Shown here: positions 593-53,027 of the stretch, piece after piece
How positions within the stretch are numbered: the first letter of the stretch is position 1
Layout of the letters: each line of letters opens with the position of its first letter
DNA from: Dictyoglomus turgidum DSM 6724
Lineage (GTDB): Bacteria > Dictyoglomota > Dictyoglomia > Dictyoglomales > Dictyoglomaceae
Length of the DNA: 64,000 nucleotides
Assembly (NCBI RefSeq): GCF_000021645.1
Contig: NC_011661.1
Span: forward strand, 1,334,723-1,398,722
Direction of reading: 5' to 3'
Notes under the pieces: model-generated
What the model was told of the DNA's origin: nothing
What the model saw: the letters and a program-made list of their open reading frames with translations, nothing else
The model's database searches: none
Position numbers and translations under genes: made by a program

Positions 593-1630
593 TTAGAAAA
601 ACCTCCATGGTTTTGGTATAAATACATTCTCATAAAGCTCTATGGCATATCTATCAGTCATTCCTGCTAAAAAATCTCTTATCTTTATTATAATATTCTC
701 TTCCTCGGAAAGATTTTGAGGAAGCTTTTGAGGATTTTTCATAAAATATTCAAAGAGACCTGTTAATAATAATTTAACTTTATCATTTTCAGACTTCACA
801 TGTGGATTCACATATAATTTCTCATACAAAAAAGCTCTCATCTCCTCAATAGCATCAAGGATTTCAGAATCAAATACCAATCTATCTTTATTAATACTAT
901 TTGCCACAAGATTTTGGACCATAGTATTAATTCTTTCTCTATGAGTCCTTCCCAAAACATCTAACACCTTTTTAGGAATGTCTTTTTCTCTTATAACACC
1001 AGCCCTTATGGCATCATCAAGGTCATGATTCAAATAAGCAATAACATCAGAAAATCTAACCACTTCAGCTTCCAAAGTCTCGCATACTCGACTCCCAAAA
1101 CATTTCCTAAAATCTTGCTGTCCTTTGCTATGTTGAAGAATGCCCATTCTAACTTCATAGGTTAGATTTAATCCCTTTCCATTATTTTCAAGCCTATCTA
1201 CAATCCTTAAACTCTGCTCCGCATGAGAAAATCCTAAAAGTCCATAGGATTTAGAAATCTCATCTAAAACATCCTCTCCCATATGTCCAAAAGGAGTATG
1301 TCCAAGATCATGTCCTAAAGCTATAGCTTCCGTTAAATCTTCATTTAAAAATAAAGCTCTCGCAATAGTTCTTGCTATCTGAGAGACTTCAAGGGTATGA
1401 GTCAAACGAGTTCTATAATGATCTCCTTCAGGAGCCAGAAATACTTGCGTCTTATGTTTTAACCTTCTGAAGGCTTTAGAATGTATAATTCTGTCTCTAT
1501 CTCTTTGAAAACGGGTTCTTATAGAACATTCTTCTTCAAAAAATAGTCTACCTTTACTATTACAACTTAGGGTTGCATATGGGGACAAGAATAGTTTTTC
1601 TCTTTCTTCTAATTTCTCCCTAATAGTCAT
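593..1630 (-). CDS. dgt: deoxyguanosinetriphosphate triphosphohydrolase-like protein (HD domain)
   Basis: 345 aa, the usual size for the bacterial dGTPase-like family that cleaves dNTPs to deoxynucleosides and tripolyphosphate. The N-terminus (LLSPYAT-like, then FQRDRDRIIHSKAFRRLKHKTQVF) is the family signature, which supports this start. HD-domain metal ligands are visible at His78 (RLTHTLEV) and His107-Asp108 (GHDLGHTPFGH). It lies between ppdK and dnaG. There is no Shine-Dalgarno directly before the ATG; instead a strong GC-rich hairpin (1636-1661) ends 6 nt upstream of the start codon, which is unusual. True substrate preference among dNTPs cannot be read from sequence. Confidence 0.92.
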   Translation of the reverse strand: MTIREKLEEREKLFLSPYATLSCNSKGRLFFEEECSIRTRFQRDRDRIIHSKAFRRLKHKTQVFLAPEGDHYRTRLTHTLEVSQIARTIARALFLNEDLTEAIALGHDLGHTPFGHMGEDVLDEISKSYGLLGFSHAEQSLRIVDRLENNGKGLNLTYEVRMGILQHSKGQQDFRKCFGSRVCETLEAEVVRFSDVIAYLNHDLDDAIRAGVIREKDIPKKVLDVLGRTHRERINTMVQNLVANSINKDRLVFDSEILDAIEEMRAFLYEKLYVNPHVKSENDKVKLLLTGLFEYFMKNPQKLPQNLSEEENIIIKIRDFLAGMTDRYAIELYENVFIPKPWRFF

Positions 1631-1635
1631 TTTTC

Positions 1636-1661
1636 AGGGGAGGGAAATTTTTCCCTCCCCT
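1636..1661 (-). other. stable hairpin between ppdK and dgt
   Basis: A perfect 12-bp inverted repeat (arms 1636-1647 and 1650-1661) of G/C-rich sequence (AGGGGAGGGAAA and its complement). Read on the coding (minus) strand it is not followed by a U-run, but by GAAAAATG, the dgt start. It therefore does not look like a standard terminator for ppdK. It could stabilise the upstream mRNA end, be a processing site, or control dgt translation. On the plus strand it is followed by TTCTTTTATC. Confidence 0.6.
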
Positions 1662-1676
1662 TCTTTTATCACCTCT

Positions 1677-4346
1677 CTAAGCAGTTCTATCTACAAACTC
1701 CATTTTCTTTTGATGTTTTAAAGTAGCTTGAGCAGCTGCTAATCTCGCCACAGGCACCCTAAATGGGGAACAACTTACATAGTCAAGTCCAATAATATAA
1801 CAGAACTCAATAGATTTTGGATCTCCACCATGTTCTCCACATATACCCACTTTAAGATCGGGTCTTGTACTTCTACCTTTTTGAACCGCTATCTTCATCA
1901 ATTCTCCTACACCCTCAGTATCTAAATGTTCAAATGGATCCTCTTCCACATATCCTTTCTCTCTATATCTTCCTAAGAATTTACCTTCTGCATCATCACG
2001 GCTGAATGCAAAGGTCATCTGGGTTAAATCATTAGTTCCAAAAGAGAAGAATTGAGCAACCCCTGCAAGTTTATCTGCAATAAGTGCTGCTCTCGGAACT
2101 TCAATCATAGTACCAACTTTATATTCAATATTGACCCCACTTTCCTCAATCACCTGTTTTGCTACTCTATGGATAAGATCACCTAACACTTTCATTTCGG
2201 ACTCTAAAGCCACAAGAGGAATCATTATCTCTGGTTTTACAGGCAATCCTTCTTTGGCTACTGCTACTGCTGCTTCCATAATTGCTCTAACTTGCATTTC
2301 AAAGATTTCTGGATATACCATGCCCAATCTACACCCTCTAAATCCTAGCATTGGGTTAAATTCATGCAATCTTCTTACCACCGAAAGGAGTCTCTCTTTC
2401 TCTTCTAATTCTTTACCCGTGATTCCCTTTGCTTTCATCAGCTCTACTTCTACAGTAAGATCTAAAAGTGGTGGTAAGAACTCATGAAGAGGAGGATCAA
2501 TTAATCTTATAGTTACAGGTTTTCCTTGCATTGCTTTAAAGAGTCCAATGAAATCTTCTCTTTGAACAGGAAGAAGTTTATCAAGAGCTTTCCTCCTATC
2601 TTCTTCTGTCTCTGCAAGAATCATTTCTTGAACCAAGGGAAGTCTATTTCCAAGGAACATATGTTCCGTTCTTGCAAGTCCAATACCCTCTGCTCCGTAC
2701 TCAAAGGCTTTTTGTGCATCTTCAGGAGTATCTGCATTAGCTCTTACTCCAATCTTTCTTATCTCGTCAGCCCAAGAAAGAAGCTCTTTAAGCTCCTCAC
2801 TTAATGTGGGTGGAATCATTGGGACTTCTCCAAGTATAACTTCTCCAGTAGAACCATCTATAGTTATAATATCATCTTTCTTGATTACTACATCTCCTAC
2901 TGTGAATTCCTCCTTGTTTAGATCTATTTTTATGGCTTCGCATCCTACCACTGCTGGTTTACCCATTCCTCTTGCCACTACTGCTGCATGACTTGTCATT
3001 CCACCTCTACTTGTGAGCACACCCTGAGCAGCAGCAAGCCCGCCTATATCATCGGGAGTTGTCTCAGGTCTGACAAGTATAACTTTCTCTCCTTCTTTAC
3101 CTCTCTTTTCAGCTTCACGAGAAGAAAACACTACTTTACCTGATGCAGCCCCAGGAGATGCTGGAAGACCTTTTGCAATAACTTTCTTTGGAGCATTAGG
3201 ATCTATCTGGGCATGAAGAAGCTGATTTATTTGATCAGGAGAAACCCTTAGTATAGCCTCCTCTTTAGTAATTAAGCCTTCTTTTACCATATCTACTGCA
3301 ATTTTTACCGCTGCCCTTGCAGTTCTTTTTGCATTTCTCGTTTGAAGCATATATAACTTTCCTTTTTCAATAGTAAACTCAATATCTTGAACATCTCGGT
3401 AATACTTTTCAAGTAAATCTCTTACTTCAAGAAGCTGCTTATACACTTCAGGCATCTCTTCAGCAAGTTTAGAAATAGGTTGTGGTGTTCTAATACCTGC
3501 TACTACATCTTCTCCCTGTGCATTGGTTAAATACTCACCATAAAACTCTTTCTCGCCTGTAGATGGGTTTCTTGTAAATGCTACTCCTGTCCCACTATCA
3601 TTCCCCATGTTTCCAAATACCATAGTAACAATATTTACTGCAGTACCATAGTCCTCAGGGATATTATGGAGTTTCCTATAAATGATTGCCCTTTCGTTGT
3701 TCCAAGAATCAAACACTGCTCTAATCGCCATTTCAAGTTGCTCATAAGGATTTTGTGGGAAATCTTTTCCCGTTTCTTTCTTTACAAGCTCCTTATATGC
3801 CTCTACTACCTTTTTCAACGTATCAGCTGAAAGCTCACTATCAAGTTTAACCCCCTGTTCTTTTTTGTAATGATCTAAAATTTCTTCAAATTTTTCATGA
3901 GGAATTCCTAAGACCACATTACCAAACATTTGAATAAATCTTCTATAGGAATCATAAGCAAATCTCTCATTGTTACTTCTTTTTGCAAGACCTTCTACTG
4001 TCTCATCATTTAAACCAAGGTTTAAAATTGTATCCATCATGCCTGGCATGGAAACAGGTGCACCAGACCTAACAGAGACAAGAAGTGGATTTTCCGGATC
4101 GGCAAATTTCTTTCCGGTTTTTTCCTCTAATTTTTTCATTGCTTCCAATACTTCTTCCATTAGTCCTTCTGGAAGCTTTTTACCATTTTCATAATATTCC
4201 TTACATACTTCTGTAGTAATTATGAATCCTGGAGGAACAGGAAGTCCTGCTTTAGTCATGTCAGCAAGCCCAGCACCCTTACCGCCAAAAAGCAAACGAT
4301 TTTTACCATCCGCCTCTTCAAATAGATATACTCTCTTTTTTGACAT
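1677..4346 (-). CDS. ppdK: pyruvate, phosphate dikinase
   Basis: 889 aa, full length for PPDK, which interconverts pyruvate + ATP + Pi with PEP + AMP + PPi. It has the N-terminal ATP-grasp nucleotide-binding domain (KNRLLFGGKGAGLADM at the start; VSVRSGAPVSMPGMMDT), the central phosphohistidine domain (GGMTSHAAVVARGMG, His near residue 455) and the C-terminal TIM barrel with the CGEHGGDP active-site Cys near 830. The start is set by a clear SD (AAGGAGGA) before the ATG at 4346. The gene has its own extended -10 promoter and stands between glyS and dgt-dnaG, a position known for ppdK in clostridia-type genomes. The PPi-linked enzyme is typical of anaerobic thermophile glycolysis (established knowledge). 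Confidence 0.97.
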   Translation of the reverse strand: MSKKRVYLFEEADGKNRLLFGGKGAGLADMTKAGLPVPPGFIITTEVCKEYYENGKKLPEGLMEEVLEAMKKLEEKTGKKFADPENPLLVSVRSGAPVSMPGMMDTILNLGLNDETVEGLAKRSNNERFAYDSYRRFIQMFGNVVLGIPHEKFEEILDHYKKEQGVKLDSELSADTLKKVVEAYKELVKKETGKDFPQNPYEQLEMAIRAVFDSWNNERAIIYRKLHNIPEDYGTAVNIVTMVFGNMGNDSGTGVAFTRNPSTGEKEFYGEYLTNAQGEDVVAGIRTPQPISKLAEEMPEVYKQLLEVRDLLEKYYRDVQDIEFTIEKGKLYMLQTRNAKRTARAAVKIAVDMVKEGLITKEEAILRVSPDQINQLLHAQIDPNAPKKVIAKGLPASPGAASGKVVFSSREAEKRGKEGEKVILVRPETTPDDIGGLAAAQGVLTSRGGMTSHAAVVARGMGKPAVVGCEAIKIDLNKEEFTVGDVVIKKDDIITIDGSTGEVILGEVPMIPPTLSEELKELLSWADEIRKIGVRANADTPEDAQKAFEYGAEGIGLARTEHMFLGNRLPLVQEMILAETEEDRRKALDKLLPVQREDFIGLFKAMQGKPVTIRLIDPPLHEFLPPLLDLTVEVELMKAKGITGKELEEKERLLSVVRRLHEFNPMLGFRGCRLGMVYPEIFEMQVRAIMEAAVAVAKEGLPVKPEIMIPLVALESEMKVLGDLIHRVAKQVIEESGVNIEYKVGTMIEVPRAALIADKLAGVAQFFSFGTNDLTQMTFAFSRDDAEGKFLGRYREKGYVEEDPFEHLDTEGVGELMKIAVQKGRSTRPDLKVGICGEHGGDPKSIEFCYIIGLDYVSCSPFRVPVARLAAAQATLKHQKKMEFVDRTA

Positions 4347-48920: not shown

Positions 48921-49919
48921 ATGGGATATAAAATAGCGGTAGTCGGAGCAACAGGTCTTGTAGGACAAGAGATGTTAAAGATACTTTATGAAAGAAAAAT
49001 CCCCATTTCAGAATTGTATGCCTTTGCTTCTGCAAAATCTGAAGGAACATATGTGGAGTTTGGAAACGAAAAGATAAAAGTTGAAAAAGCCACGGCAGAT
49101 GGAATTGCTAAGGCTGAATTTGCATTATTCTCTATTGGAGAAGAGATTAGTCTTGAACTTGCTCCTGAAATTGCAAAAAAAGGAACCATAATTATAGATA
49201 ATAGCAATGCATTTAGAATGGACCCTGAAGTACCTCTTGTAATACCAGAGATAAATCCAGAGGATCTAAAAAATCATAAAAACATAATTGCAAATCCAAA
49301 TTGTTCAACTATACAAATGCTCGTAGCTTTAAATCCTCTTCACAAGAGATGGAAACTTAAGAGAATATTTGTAGCAACTTATCAGTCGGTATCTGGAAAA
49401 GGAAAAGATGCTATAGACGAGCTTTTAACTTCTACTTCAGCTTTTCTTAAAAGGGAAGATCATCCTCCTAAAGTTTTTCCCCATCCTATCGCGTTTAACC
49501 TAATTCCACATATTGATAGTTTTGAAGACGAAAATTATACCAGAGAAGAGATGAAGATGGTAAGAGAAACCCATAAAATACTGCATGATCCAACTATAAA
49601 AGTTTCTCCAACCTGCGTAAGAACTCCTGTAATAAGAGGACATTCAGAAGTAATTAATGCTGAGTTTCAAGATGATTTCTCTTTGGAAGAGGTTTTTGAA
49701 GTTTTATCCAATGCACCTGGTGTAAGAGTTTTAGATGAACCTTCAAATAAGGTCTATCCAATGCCTATCTTTTGCGAAGGAAGAGATGAGGTATTTGTGG
49801 GTAGAATTCGAAAAGATTTATTTAACCCAAGATCTATAAATATGTGGGTTGTGTCAGATAATATTAGAAAAGGTGCAGCTTTAAATGCTATTCAAATTCT
49901 TGAATATTTAATAAAATAA
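48921..49919 (+). CDS. asd: aspartate-semialdehyde dehydrogenase
   Basis: 332 aa. AVVGATGLVGQEMLKIL (NADP binding), catalytic Cys128 in ANPNCSTIQMLVAL, YQSVSGKGKDAIDEL and HKILHDPTIKVSPTCVRTPVIRGHSE with the substrate Arg and His. SD AAGGAGGT. Shared step for lysine and threonine/methionine branches. Confidence 0.96.
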   Translation: MGYKIAVVGATGLVGQEMLKILYERKIPISELYAFASAKSEGTYVEFGNEKIKVEKATADGIAKAEFALFSIGEEISLELAPEIAKKGTIIIDNSNAFRMDPEVPLVIPEINPEDLKNHKNIIANPNCSTIQMLVALNPLHKRWKLKRIFVATYQSVSGKGKDAIDELLTSTSAFLKREDHPPKVFPHPIAFNLIPHIDSFEDENYTREEMKMVRETHKILHDPTIKVSPTCVRTPVIRGHSEVINAEFQDDFSLEEVFEVLSNAPGVRVLDEPSNKVYPMPIFCEGRDEVFVGRIRKDLFNPRSINMWVVSDNIRKGAALNAIQILEYLIK

Positions 49920-49935
49920 GGAGGAAATATAGAAG

Positions 49936-51159
49936 GTGAGCCTGATAGTACAGAAATATGGTGGAACCTCTGTCGGGTCTATTGAGAGAATTAAAAATGT
50001 GGCCCAAAGAATAGCTAAGTATTATCATAGTGGACATAAATTAGTAGTGGTAGTTTCTGCTATGGGTGATACCACTGACGAACTTATAGATATGGCGGAA
50101 AAATTAAATCCTAATCCTAATCCAAGAGAGATGGACTTTTTACTATCTTCTGGTGAAAGAATCTCTGCTGCACTTACTGCTATGGCTCTGCAAAATTTAG
50201 GAATTCCTGCTATAGCTCTATCAGGAAAACAGGCAGGAATTATGACAGATTCTGTTTTTACAAAAGCAAATATAAAAAAAATCGATCCCAAGAGAATATT
50301 GGAAGAATTAGAAAAAGGAAAAGTAGTTATTGTTGCTGGCTTCCAAGGATATGAACCTGAAAAGGGAGATGTAACAACTCTTGGAAGAGGAGGATCTGAT
50401 GCAACTGCAGTAGCTCTTGCTGCTGTTTTAAAAGCAGATATATGTGAAATATATACTGATGTGGATGGTATTTTTACTGCCGATCCCAGGGTAGTACCAA
50501 ATGCCAAAAAACTCGAGTTTATATCCTATGAAGAAATGTTAGAAATGGCAAGCCAAGGAGCACAGGTAATGCAACTTCGCTCTGTAGATCTTGCTGCCAC
50601 ATATCATGTACCAGTAGTAGTGAGATCAAGTTTTAATGAAAATTCTGGAACTTTAATAGGGGAGGTAAAGGAAGTGGAATCTAAACAGAAAGTAAAGGGT
50701 ATAGCCCATAACAAAAACATTGCTAAAATAACTATTATAGGTGTCCCTGACAAACCCGGCATAGCCCACAAAATATTTGCTCCTCTTGGAGAAAAATCAA
50801 TAAATGTGGACGATATAGTCCAGAATGTAAGTAAAGAAGGAATAACTGATTTATCTTTTACCGTATCTGAAAGGGAGTTGAACGAAGCTCTAAAAGTAGT
50901 GCAAGAAGTAGCAAAAGAAATTGGAGCAAAAAAGGTATTATATGATAATAACGTAGGAAAAGTTTCTATTGTGGGATGGGGAATCCAAAGCACCCCAGGA
51001 ATTGCTGCCAAGATGTTTGGAATTCTTGCTTCGGAAGGAATAAATATAGAAATGATTACTACATCCGAGATTAAAATTACGTGTATAATAAGAAGAGATT
51101 TGGTAGAAAAAGCTGTTAGAGCATTACACGATGGATTTAATTTGGGAGGAGAGGACTAA
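49936..51159 (+). CDS. lysC: aspartate kinase
   Basis: 407 aa. Kinase domain with VQKYGGTSVGSIERIKNVA, FLLSSGERISAALTAMAL, TTLGRGGSDATAVALAA and YTDVDGIFTADPR; two C-terminal ACT domains (from ~residue 265: VPDKPGIAHKIFAPL and WGIQSTPGIAAKMFGIL) give allosteric regulation. GTG start at 49936 with SD AAGGAGG at ~11 nt. Last gene of the operon; its stop is inside the terminator stem-loop. Confidence 0.95.
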   Translation: MSLIVQKYGGTSVGSIERIKNVAQRIAKYYHSGHKLVVVVSAMGDTTDELIDMAEKLNPNPNPREMDFLLSSGERISAALTAMALQNLGIPAIALSGKQAGIMTDSVFTKANIKKIDPKRILEELEKGKVVIVAGFQGYEPEKGDVTTLGRGGSDATAVALAAVLKADICEIYTDVDGIFTADPRVVPNAKKLEFISYEEMLEMASQGAQVMQLRSVDLAATYHVPVVVRSSFNENSGTLIGEVKEVESKQKVKGIAHNKNIAKITIIGVPDKPGIAHKIFAPLGEKSINVDDIVQNVSKEGITDLSFTVSERELNEALKVVQEVAKEIGAKKVLYDNNVGKVSIVGWGIQSTPGIAAKMFGILASEGINIEMITTSEIKITCIIRRDLVEKAVRALHDGFNLGGED

Positions 51160-51180
51160 TCCCCCTCCTCCCTTTAATCT
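51144..51180. terminator. bidirectional terminator between lysC and rplL
   Basis: 8-bp perfect arms GGGAGGAG (51144-51151) and CTCCTCCC (51165-51172), extended by an inner GGA/TCC pair, followed by TTTAATCTTTTA on the plus strand. The lysC stop codon (51157-51159) lies in the loop. It separates convergent operons in 22 nt. Confidence 0.72.
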
Positions 51181-51181
51181 T

Positions 51182-51559
51182 TTACTTAATCTCCACTACT
51201 GCCCCTTCTGCTTCTAATTTAGCTTTAATTTCTTCTGCCTCTTGTTTAGATACGCCTTCTTTTATAGGTTTAGGTGTAGAATCCACAAGATCTTTTGCTT
51301 CTTTCAAACCAAGTCCTGTGATTTCTCTTACTACTTTGAGCACCTTTATCTTATTAGCTCCAGCATCCTTTAAAATTACGTCAAAGGTAGTTTTTTCCTC
51401 AACAGGAGCTGCTGCCGCTGCTCCAGCTACAGGTGCTCCTACAGCTGCCACAGGCATTGCTGCACTAACACCAAATTCCTCCTCAAGAGCCTTTACTAAC
51501 TCTACCAGTTCGATCACTTTCATTTCTTTTATAGCTTGAATAATTTCCTCTTTATTCAT
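51182..51559 (-). CDS. rplL: 50S ribosomal protein L7/L12
   Basis: 125 aa. N-terminal dimerisation ([34 protein letters not shown]), Ala/Val/Pro hinge and C-terminal factor-binding domain ([38 protein letters not shown]). SD GGGAGGTT before ATG. Last gene of the operon. Confidence 0.98.
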
Positions 51560-51574
51560 TCTAATAACCTCCCT

Positions 51575-52120
51575 TTATTGATTTATTGAAATTTTTTCTT
51601 TTTCTTTAGCAATAGCGTCTAAAGTCCAAACCAGCTTATTAACAGGCCATTTTAAATTCCACACAAGAGAAGATAATGGTGCAGAGATAGATCCAACCAC
51701 CTGAGATAGTATGACTTCCTTTGGAGGAAGTTTAGCTAACTCTCTAATCTCATCAGCAGAATAAACTTCCCCATCTATTATTCCGCCTTTAAACTTCAAT
51801 AATTCATGATCCTTTGCATAATCCACAAGGGCCTTCAAAACGCCAAAAGGATCATCATAACAATAGGTTATTGCAGTAGGTCCTACGAAGAATTTTTCTA
51901 AATCTTTATCTGGGTACATTCTTTGAATTGCACGAAGAGCTAAAGTATTCTTTACTACTCGGTATTCTGCATTTAAGGGTCTTATCTTTCCTCTTAGTTG
52001 AGTTAAATCAGCAACTGATAAGCCTTTGAATTCTGTAAAAATTAGAGCATTAGCATTCAGCATTTTTTGATATAACTCTTCAACCTTCTGTATTTTCTCT
52101 GGTTTTGGCAATCTTTTCAC
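51575..52120 (-). CDS. rplJ: 50S ribosomal protein L10
   Basis: 181 aa. LTQLRGKIRPLNAEYRVVKNTLALRAI and the C-terminal helix that carries L7/L12 dimers are visible. Start ATG after SD AAAGGAGGTG. Preceded by a 160-nt leader with terminator and L10-binding elements, so it is likely to repress its own operon. Confidence 0.97.
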   Translation of the reverse strand: MKRLPKPEKIQKVEELYQKMLNANALIFTEFKGLSVADLTQLRGKIRPLNAEYRVVKNTLALRAIQRMYPDKDLEKFFVGPTAITYCYDDPFGVLKALVDYAKDHELLKFKGGIIDGEVYSADEIRELAKLPPKEVILSQVVGSISAPLSSLVWNLKWPVNKLVWTLDAIAKEKEKISINQ

Positions 52121-52140
52121 CTCCTTTCTTATTATTTCAA

Positions 52141-52174
52141 AAATAAGGGAAAGCCTTCTGGCTTTCCCTTATTT
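52141..52174 (-). terminator. attenuator/terminator hairpin in the rplJ leader
   Basis: 15-bp perfect stem AAATAAGGGAAAGCC / GGCTTTCCCTTATTT with a 4-nt loop, followed by TTGAAATAAT; the 3' arm ends in U-rich sequence. Positioned between the L10-binding region and the rplJ SD. Confidence 0.78.
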
Positions 52175-52199
52175 ATCTAAATCTTTTTTTATTTTTTGA

Positions 52200-52260
52200 G
52201 AAACCAGAAAGGCCTACGTAGGAAATTTTAAAAACCTACGGTCTTCGGCCCTCTAATATT
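52200..52260 (-). promoter_or_regulatory. ribosomal protein L10 leader (autoregulatory)
   Basis: On the minus strand the segment GAGGGCCGAAGACCGTAGG ... CCTACGTAGGCC has the arrangement of bacterial L10 leaders (stem CGTAGG/CCTACG plus outer GGCC/GGCC). Its 3' part, GGCCTTTCTGGTTTCTC, is nearly complementary (two single-base bulges) to GGGAAAGCCAGAAGGC of the downstream terminator, so it can serve as antiterminator. L10 binding would free the terminator and lower rplJL expression. Confidence 0.8.
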
Positions 52261-52281
52261 TCAAGTTTTTATTTTATTCCG

Positions 52282-53010
52282 CTATGCAGCCTCCTCTTGT
52301 TTTACAAGGTCTGCAATATTCTTAGTATCTATAGGTACACTTGGGCCCATACTTGGGGATATGTAGATACTTTTAAAATATTGTCCTTTTGCTGCGGCTG
52401 GCTTAAGCCTTAAAAGGGTTCCTAACACGGTCATTAAGTTTTTATACAAAGCCTCTTCAGAAAAAGAGGCTTTACCTATTGGAACATGAACTATTCCATA
52501 TCGATCCGTCCTAAATTCTACCCTTCCAGCCTTATATTCTTTAACAGCCTTAGCTATATCATTAGTAACGGTACCCGTTTTAGGATTCGGCATTAATCCT
52601 CTTGGACCTAAAATTTTCCCTAATCGAGAAGGAATTTTTAAGGTTCCCATTATATCAGGAGTAGCTATTGCTACATCAAAATCAAGCCATCCGCTTTCAA
52701 TCTGCTTTACTAGATCTTCTCCACCTACATAATCTGCTCCGGCCTCTCTTGCTTCCTGAGCCTTTTCTCCCTCAGCAAAAACCAAGACTTTCTTTTCTTT
52801 ACCTGTGCCGTAAGGTAAAACAACTGTTCCTCTAACTTGTTGATCTGCATGTCTTGGATCCACGCCAAGTCTTACAGCTAGATTTATGGTCTCGTCAAAC
52901 TTTGCTGTTGCAAGTTTTTTAACTAAACTTACAGCCTCCTTTGGAGAATATAATCTTCCTTTTTCAATCAGAGAAAGCAACTGCTGATATCTCTTACCTC
53001 TTTTTGCCAT
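52282..53010 (-). CDS. rplA: 50S ribosomal protein L1
   Basis: 242 aa from ATG 53010 (SD AAGGAGGA; an upstream TTG at 53016 is unlikely). Typical: [87 protein letters not shown]. The candidate L1 operator precedes it. Confidence 0.97.
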
Positions 53011-53027
53011 ATTCAATCCTCCTTTAT

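Follow-up and report, generated by a model that had tools for sequence, protein, structure and literature searches.

Dictyoglomus turgidum encodes the ribosomal proteins L1 and L10 from adjacent genes on the same strand, and the short interval between them raises the question of whether expression of L10 is controlled by a complete attenuation switch, as a preliminary description had proposed from the sequence, or whether the interval contains only a hairpin separating two genes. The window analysed here is a 64,000-nucleotide stretch of a genome of 1,855,560 bp, and coordinates are given as positions within it. We observe three overlapping RNA structures in the interval, their conservation among relatives, and an rRNA-like core, and the leader is in all probability an autogenous transcription attenuator of rplJL.

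Gene context and family assignment of the leader

A Pfam search gives the gene order on the minus strand as L11, L1, L10 and L12, and the leader occupies the 161 nt separating rplA (L1) from rplJ (L10). The features are as follows, with the three structures referred to as the anti-antiterminator (AAT), the antiterminator (AT) and the terminator (T), and with the basis of each assignment in parentheses.

52282–53016, minus strand: rplA (L1), the upstream gene on the same strand (Pfam PF00687)
52211–52251, minus strand: AAT, a hairpin of the L10(L12)4-site type (Rfam RF00557 match, pairing, 23S likeness)
52198–52213, minus strand: AT 5′ strand, GCCUUUCUGGUUUCUC (duplex energy, chance test, invariant UGGU)
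52153–52168, minus strand: AT 3′ strand, GGGAAAGCCAGAAGGC (alignment pairing, compensatory change)
52141–52174, minus strand: T, an intrinsic terminator hairpin of 15 bp with an AGAA loop (folding, covariation)
52117–52125, minus strand: rplJ ribosome-binding site, AGGAGGUGA (sequence, invariant in seven species)
51575–52120, minus strand: rplJ (L10), with a listed GTG start at 52120 (Pfam PF00466)
51182–51559, minus strand: rplL (L7/L12), the second gene of the putative regulated unit (Pfam PF00542, PF16320)

The sequences noted in the preliminary description are present at the place and on the strand given there, and the L10-leader hairpin (52211–52251) lies within the 52141–52260 segment to which it referred. 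Within 52109–52120 (minus strand), the true start of rplJ is probably the TTG at 52111 rather than the listed GTG, because three of the relatives (G004–G006) do not have the GTG in the L10 reading frame and the TTGCC downstream of the Shine-Dalgarno sequence is conserved in all seven Dictyoglomota. The L10 protein is 87% identical to that of an uncultured Dictyoglomus. At the other end of the unit rpoB is not next to rplL; convergent plus-strand genes for aspartate-semialdehyde dehydrogenase and aspartokinase (48921–51182) come after it instead, and the usual rplJL-rpoBC linkage is thus broken.

The leader matches the Rfam family RF00557 (L10_leader) at 52131–52266 with a score of 33.6 bits (E 5e-4, 301 nt searched), and the alignment spans the full model, positions 1–138, including both the hairpin and the terminator, with the Pfam L10 match immediately downstream. 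This score does not reach the family's gathering cutoff of 44 bits, so the leader is missed by Rfam's own threshold; the corresponding matches in the other Dictyoglomota range from 31.5 to 41.8 bits, every one of them below the cutoff. Other candidate assignments were rejected. Matches to Termite-leu (plus strand), RsaE and further families other than L10_leader are all below cutoff and arise from the inverted repeat of the terminator, and a second L10_leader-like match in the genome (L002, E 0.026) adjoins an FMN-riboswitch-like sequence and not rplJ. At this second locus (approximately 1515–1740, minus strand), the FMN-riboswitch-like sequence and a terminator hairpin precede a gene that probably encodes a riboflavin transporter, both names coming from a reading of the sequence rather than from a family search.

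Three overlapping structures and their conservation

Read from 52251 to 52211 on the minus strand, AAT has the form GGCC-GAAGAC-CGUAGG...UAAAA...CCUACG-UA-GGCC, with a lower stem of GGCC paired to GGCC, a kink-turn-like internal loop (GAAGAC/UA), an upper stem (CGUAGG/CCUACG), and a loop containing UAA. All 11 pairs are kept in each of the seven Dictyoglomota, such that the hairpin is 100% paired and nearly invariant, and no covariation is detectable in the seven-species alignment because the sequence varies too little. The six-base internal loop containing AGAC, which by its sequence is kink-turn-like, and the UAAA of the apical loop are likewise found in all seven species. The 23S L10-site region of the same genome, GGCGAAGACAGUCAGG...CUGAUCGAGCC, has CGAAGAC in common with the leader GGCCGAAGACCGUAGG, and the leader hairpin thus imitates the core of the genome's own 23S L10 site. 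There is one departure from this likeness. The 3′ strand of the kink-turn is GUAGG in all seven Dictyoglomota, and the UA at 52215–52216 (minus strand) lies opposite GAAGAC in all of them, whereas the 23S rRNA of the same genome and most of the leaders compared from other lineages have (C)GA; the sequences therefore point to a lineage-specific kink-turn variant with U in the place of G.

The terminator sits directly upstream of the rplJ ribosome-binding site and is separated from the AT 5′ strand by an AU-rich spacer. Its stem is perfect, AAAUAAGGGAAAGCC-AGAA-GGCUUUCCCUUAUUU (52174–52141), and continues into UU, with the U-rich UUAUUUUU lying partly within the stem. Five pairs show two-sided changes among the seven species, and the covariation score is reached by 0 of 500 shuffles. 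Several of the Dictyoglomota have an imperfect U tract. A terminator scan of the region reported no terminator at the leader; this simple scan missed the hairpin because its stem extends into the U tract.

The two AT strands, GCCUUUCUGGUUUCUC (52213–52198) and GGGAAAGCCAGAAGGC (52168–52153), form a duplex of 15 bp at −19.6 kcal/mol, in which a single U and a single G are bulged. The preliminary description had assigned 15 bp with two one-base bulges to the terminator stem; these details are correct for the antiterminator but not for the terminator, whose 15 bp are uninterrupted. The first three nucleotides of the AT 5′ strand (GCC) double as part of the AAT 3′ arm, and the AT 3′ strand consists of the terminator 5′ arm from its GGG onwards, the loop, and the first three nucleotides of the 3′ arm. 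AAT, AT and T are therefore mutually exclusive, in agreement with what had been proposed for the antiterminator and terminator, and all seven Dictyoglomota genomes compared contain L10 preceded by the same leader, with all three overlapping structures conserved.

Two comparisons place the AT pairing far above chance. First, none of 2000 dinucleotide-shuffled spacers pairs with the terminator arm as well as the actual spacer, and in the six other species 1–11 of 2000 do so. Secondly, when the terminator arm is compared with both strands of the window, few sites pair with it as well: besides its complement in the terminator and this leader there are only three, of which one lies on the strand of the leader. 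In the alignment, 97.6% of the AT cells are paired across the seven species, compared to 42–66% when the strands are slid, and the UGGU of the spacer is invariant amid otherwise variable spacer sequence.

Of the covariation in relatives that the preliminary description had named for the alternative helix, one two-sided change is seen. In G002 a C to G change in the spacer accompanies a G to C change in the terminator loop, such that the pair is retained as a compensatory C-G to G-C replacement. AAT does not include the spacer base, and T leaves the loop base unpaired, so that among the modelled states AT alone joins the two and the change supports this helix specifically. However, one two-sided change does not amount to significant covariation (72/500 shuffles), owing to how few substitutions the sequences contain; in addition, one U-A pair of AT is U-G in two species. 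With so few substitutions, the case for AT rests jointly on position, the conservation of UGGU in a drifting spacer, and the energy test.

Folding behaviour, proposed mechanism and alternatives

The fold of the whole leader has a z-score of −4.3 relative to shuffles, and at equilibrium the combination of AAT and T is more stable than AT in every species, by 3–13 kcal/mol (37 °C). Since AAT and T together win at equilibrium, any read-through must be kinetic and requires AT to form while T is still incomplete. In folds of successive prefixes at 70 °C, which are equilibrium folds of a growing RNA and do not represent kinetics, AT competes mainly once some 2–4 nt beyond the AT end are exposed, as the 3′ arm of the terminator emerges, at about 25–85% for the overlapping segment, and T prevails from about 5 or 6 nt. 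The RNA-DNA hybrid within a transcribing polymerase is 9–10 nt, and from this and the prefix-fold lengths the RNAs in which AT competes would emerge as polymerase transcribes the U tract, and we suggest that the decision is made there. Folding with and without the L10 site had been proposed as a check, and its outcome favours the switch: when AAT is forced at these lengths AT is abolished and T is raised in most species, so that binding of L10 to AAT would be expected to promote termination.

We propose that free L10(L12)4 in excess of its 23S rRNA sites would bind the kink-turn hairpin of the nascent leader. The bound AAT would hold its GGCC 3′ arm, AT would be blocked, the terminator would fold, and polymerase would halt upstream of rplJ; when L10(L12)4 is scarce, the arm would be free to pair with the terminator 5′ arm and loop, giving read-through. 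We infer the binding of L10(L12)4, the termination and the direction of control from Bacillus subtilis. The logic is the same as that demonstrated by experiment for its rplJL operon (PMC4538822) and, together with the backing that the G002 change lends to the alternative helix, this analogy supports the preliminary reading as an attenuation switch.

A different account of the same anatomy, which we consider improbable, is that the hairpin between rplA and rplJ is a constitutive partial terminator or processing site whose only role is to fix how much L1/L11 message is made relative to L10/L12 message, without any response to L10. A strong covarying hairpin does separate two ribosomal protein genes on the same strand, and the equilibrium state is that in which AAT and T are both formed, but neither the conserved hairpin resembling the 23S L10 site, nor the invariant UGGU and the compensatory change that links the spacer with the loop of the terminator, would then be explained. 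Even less probable is that L10(L12)4 binds the leader and represses rplJ translation, with the terminator being incidental; the leader does contain a hairpin of the L10-binding type, and L10 acts on translation in Escherichia coli (PMC4538822), but the Shine-Dalgarno sequence follows the terminator and, under the definitions used here, belongs to none of AAT, AT and T, and the conserved overlap of AT and T would lack an explanation. The least probable account is that AT complementarity is a by-product of separately constrained AAT and terminator sequences. AT does overlap the AAT arm by just 3 nt, and 8 of 12 AT pairs never vary in the seven species. Against this account stand the chance tests in the seven species and the conservation of CUGGU, which belongs to neither AAT nor T and shows one compensatory change.

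The preferred reading is thus that of an attenuator acting ahead of rplJ. A scan for promoters recognised none on the minus strand near the leader, and since there is no promoter-like site nearby on its strand, the leader may be an internal valve of a longer rplKAJL message. A fuller version, which we offer only tentatively and consider rather doubtful, is that such a promoter-less valve within rplK-rplA-rplJ-rplL sets L10/L12 apart from L11/L1, uses the U-for-G kink-turn specific to the Dictyoglomota, and is tuned to function near 70 °C.

Relationship to other L10 leaders

A literature search returned no report of L10 regulation in Dictyoglomus. A survey from 2013 reportedly dealt with ribosomal leaders. 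L10 leaders are widespread, including in Fusobacteria, Actinobacteria, Cyanobacteria and Chloroflexi, and their mechanisms may differ (2024 review, PMC10931766). Above-cutoff RF00557 matches are present in 9 of 116 genomes sampled from other lineages, and an automated search suggests, for at least three loci (L041, L043 and L045), that pairing is possible between the 5′ side of the terminator and the 3′ arm of the L10 hairpin; at the remaining loci the search gave no clear AT or was negative, with the hairpin being misplaced in L044 and L046. Some L10 leaders outside the Dictyoglomota thus seem to contain part of the AAT/AT/T overlap. The Dictyoglomus leader resembles RF00557 in its match to the full model, with hairpin and terminator upstream of rplJ, and differs in its sub-cutoff score. 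It has the same presumed ligand and autogenous logic as the E. coli rplJL leader, but its anatomy indicates transcription termination, whereas PMC4538822 and PMC10931766 place L10(L12)4 control of E. coli rplJL at translation.

The closest comparison is with B. subtilis rplJL, for which L10(L12)4-dependent attenuation through AAT, AT and T was shown by Yakhnin et al. in 2015 (PMC4538822), who used oligonucleotides, mutations, footprints and in vitro transcription to test the three structures. The mechanism is therefore already known, and our understanding of L10 regulation is unchanged by the Dictyoglomus leader, a copy that is nevertheless real and well supported. There are several differences between the two. 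In B. subtilis a sigma-A promoter has been mapped for rplJL and the leader measures 213 nt (PMC4538822), whereas no promoter was recognised in the Dictyoglomus leader region. The B. subtilis accessory feature of a leader peptide with a Shine-Dalgarno sequence in the terminator 3′ arm is absent; the Dictyoglomus leader has no separate open reading frame of at least 20 amino acids, the arm, GGCUUUCCC, contains no Shine-Dalgarno sequence, and the terminator adjoins the rplJ ribosome-binding site. The 3′ strand of the kink-turn is CGUAGG rather than CCGAGG. The two share a kink-turn-type AAT with UAA, an AT overlapping both AAT and T, an intrinsic terminator before rplJ, and the rplJ-rplL gene pair. 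The seven aligned leaders form a clean test set, with one compensatory AT change and a lineage-specific kink-turn letter, and the attenuation shown in Bacillus very probably extends to the Dictyoglomota, a separate phylum of thermophiles in which the element falls below the Rfam cutoff.
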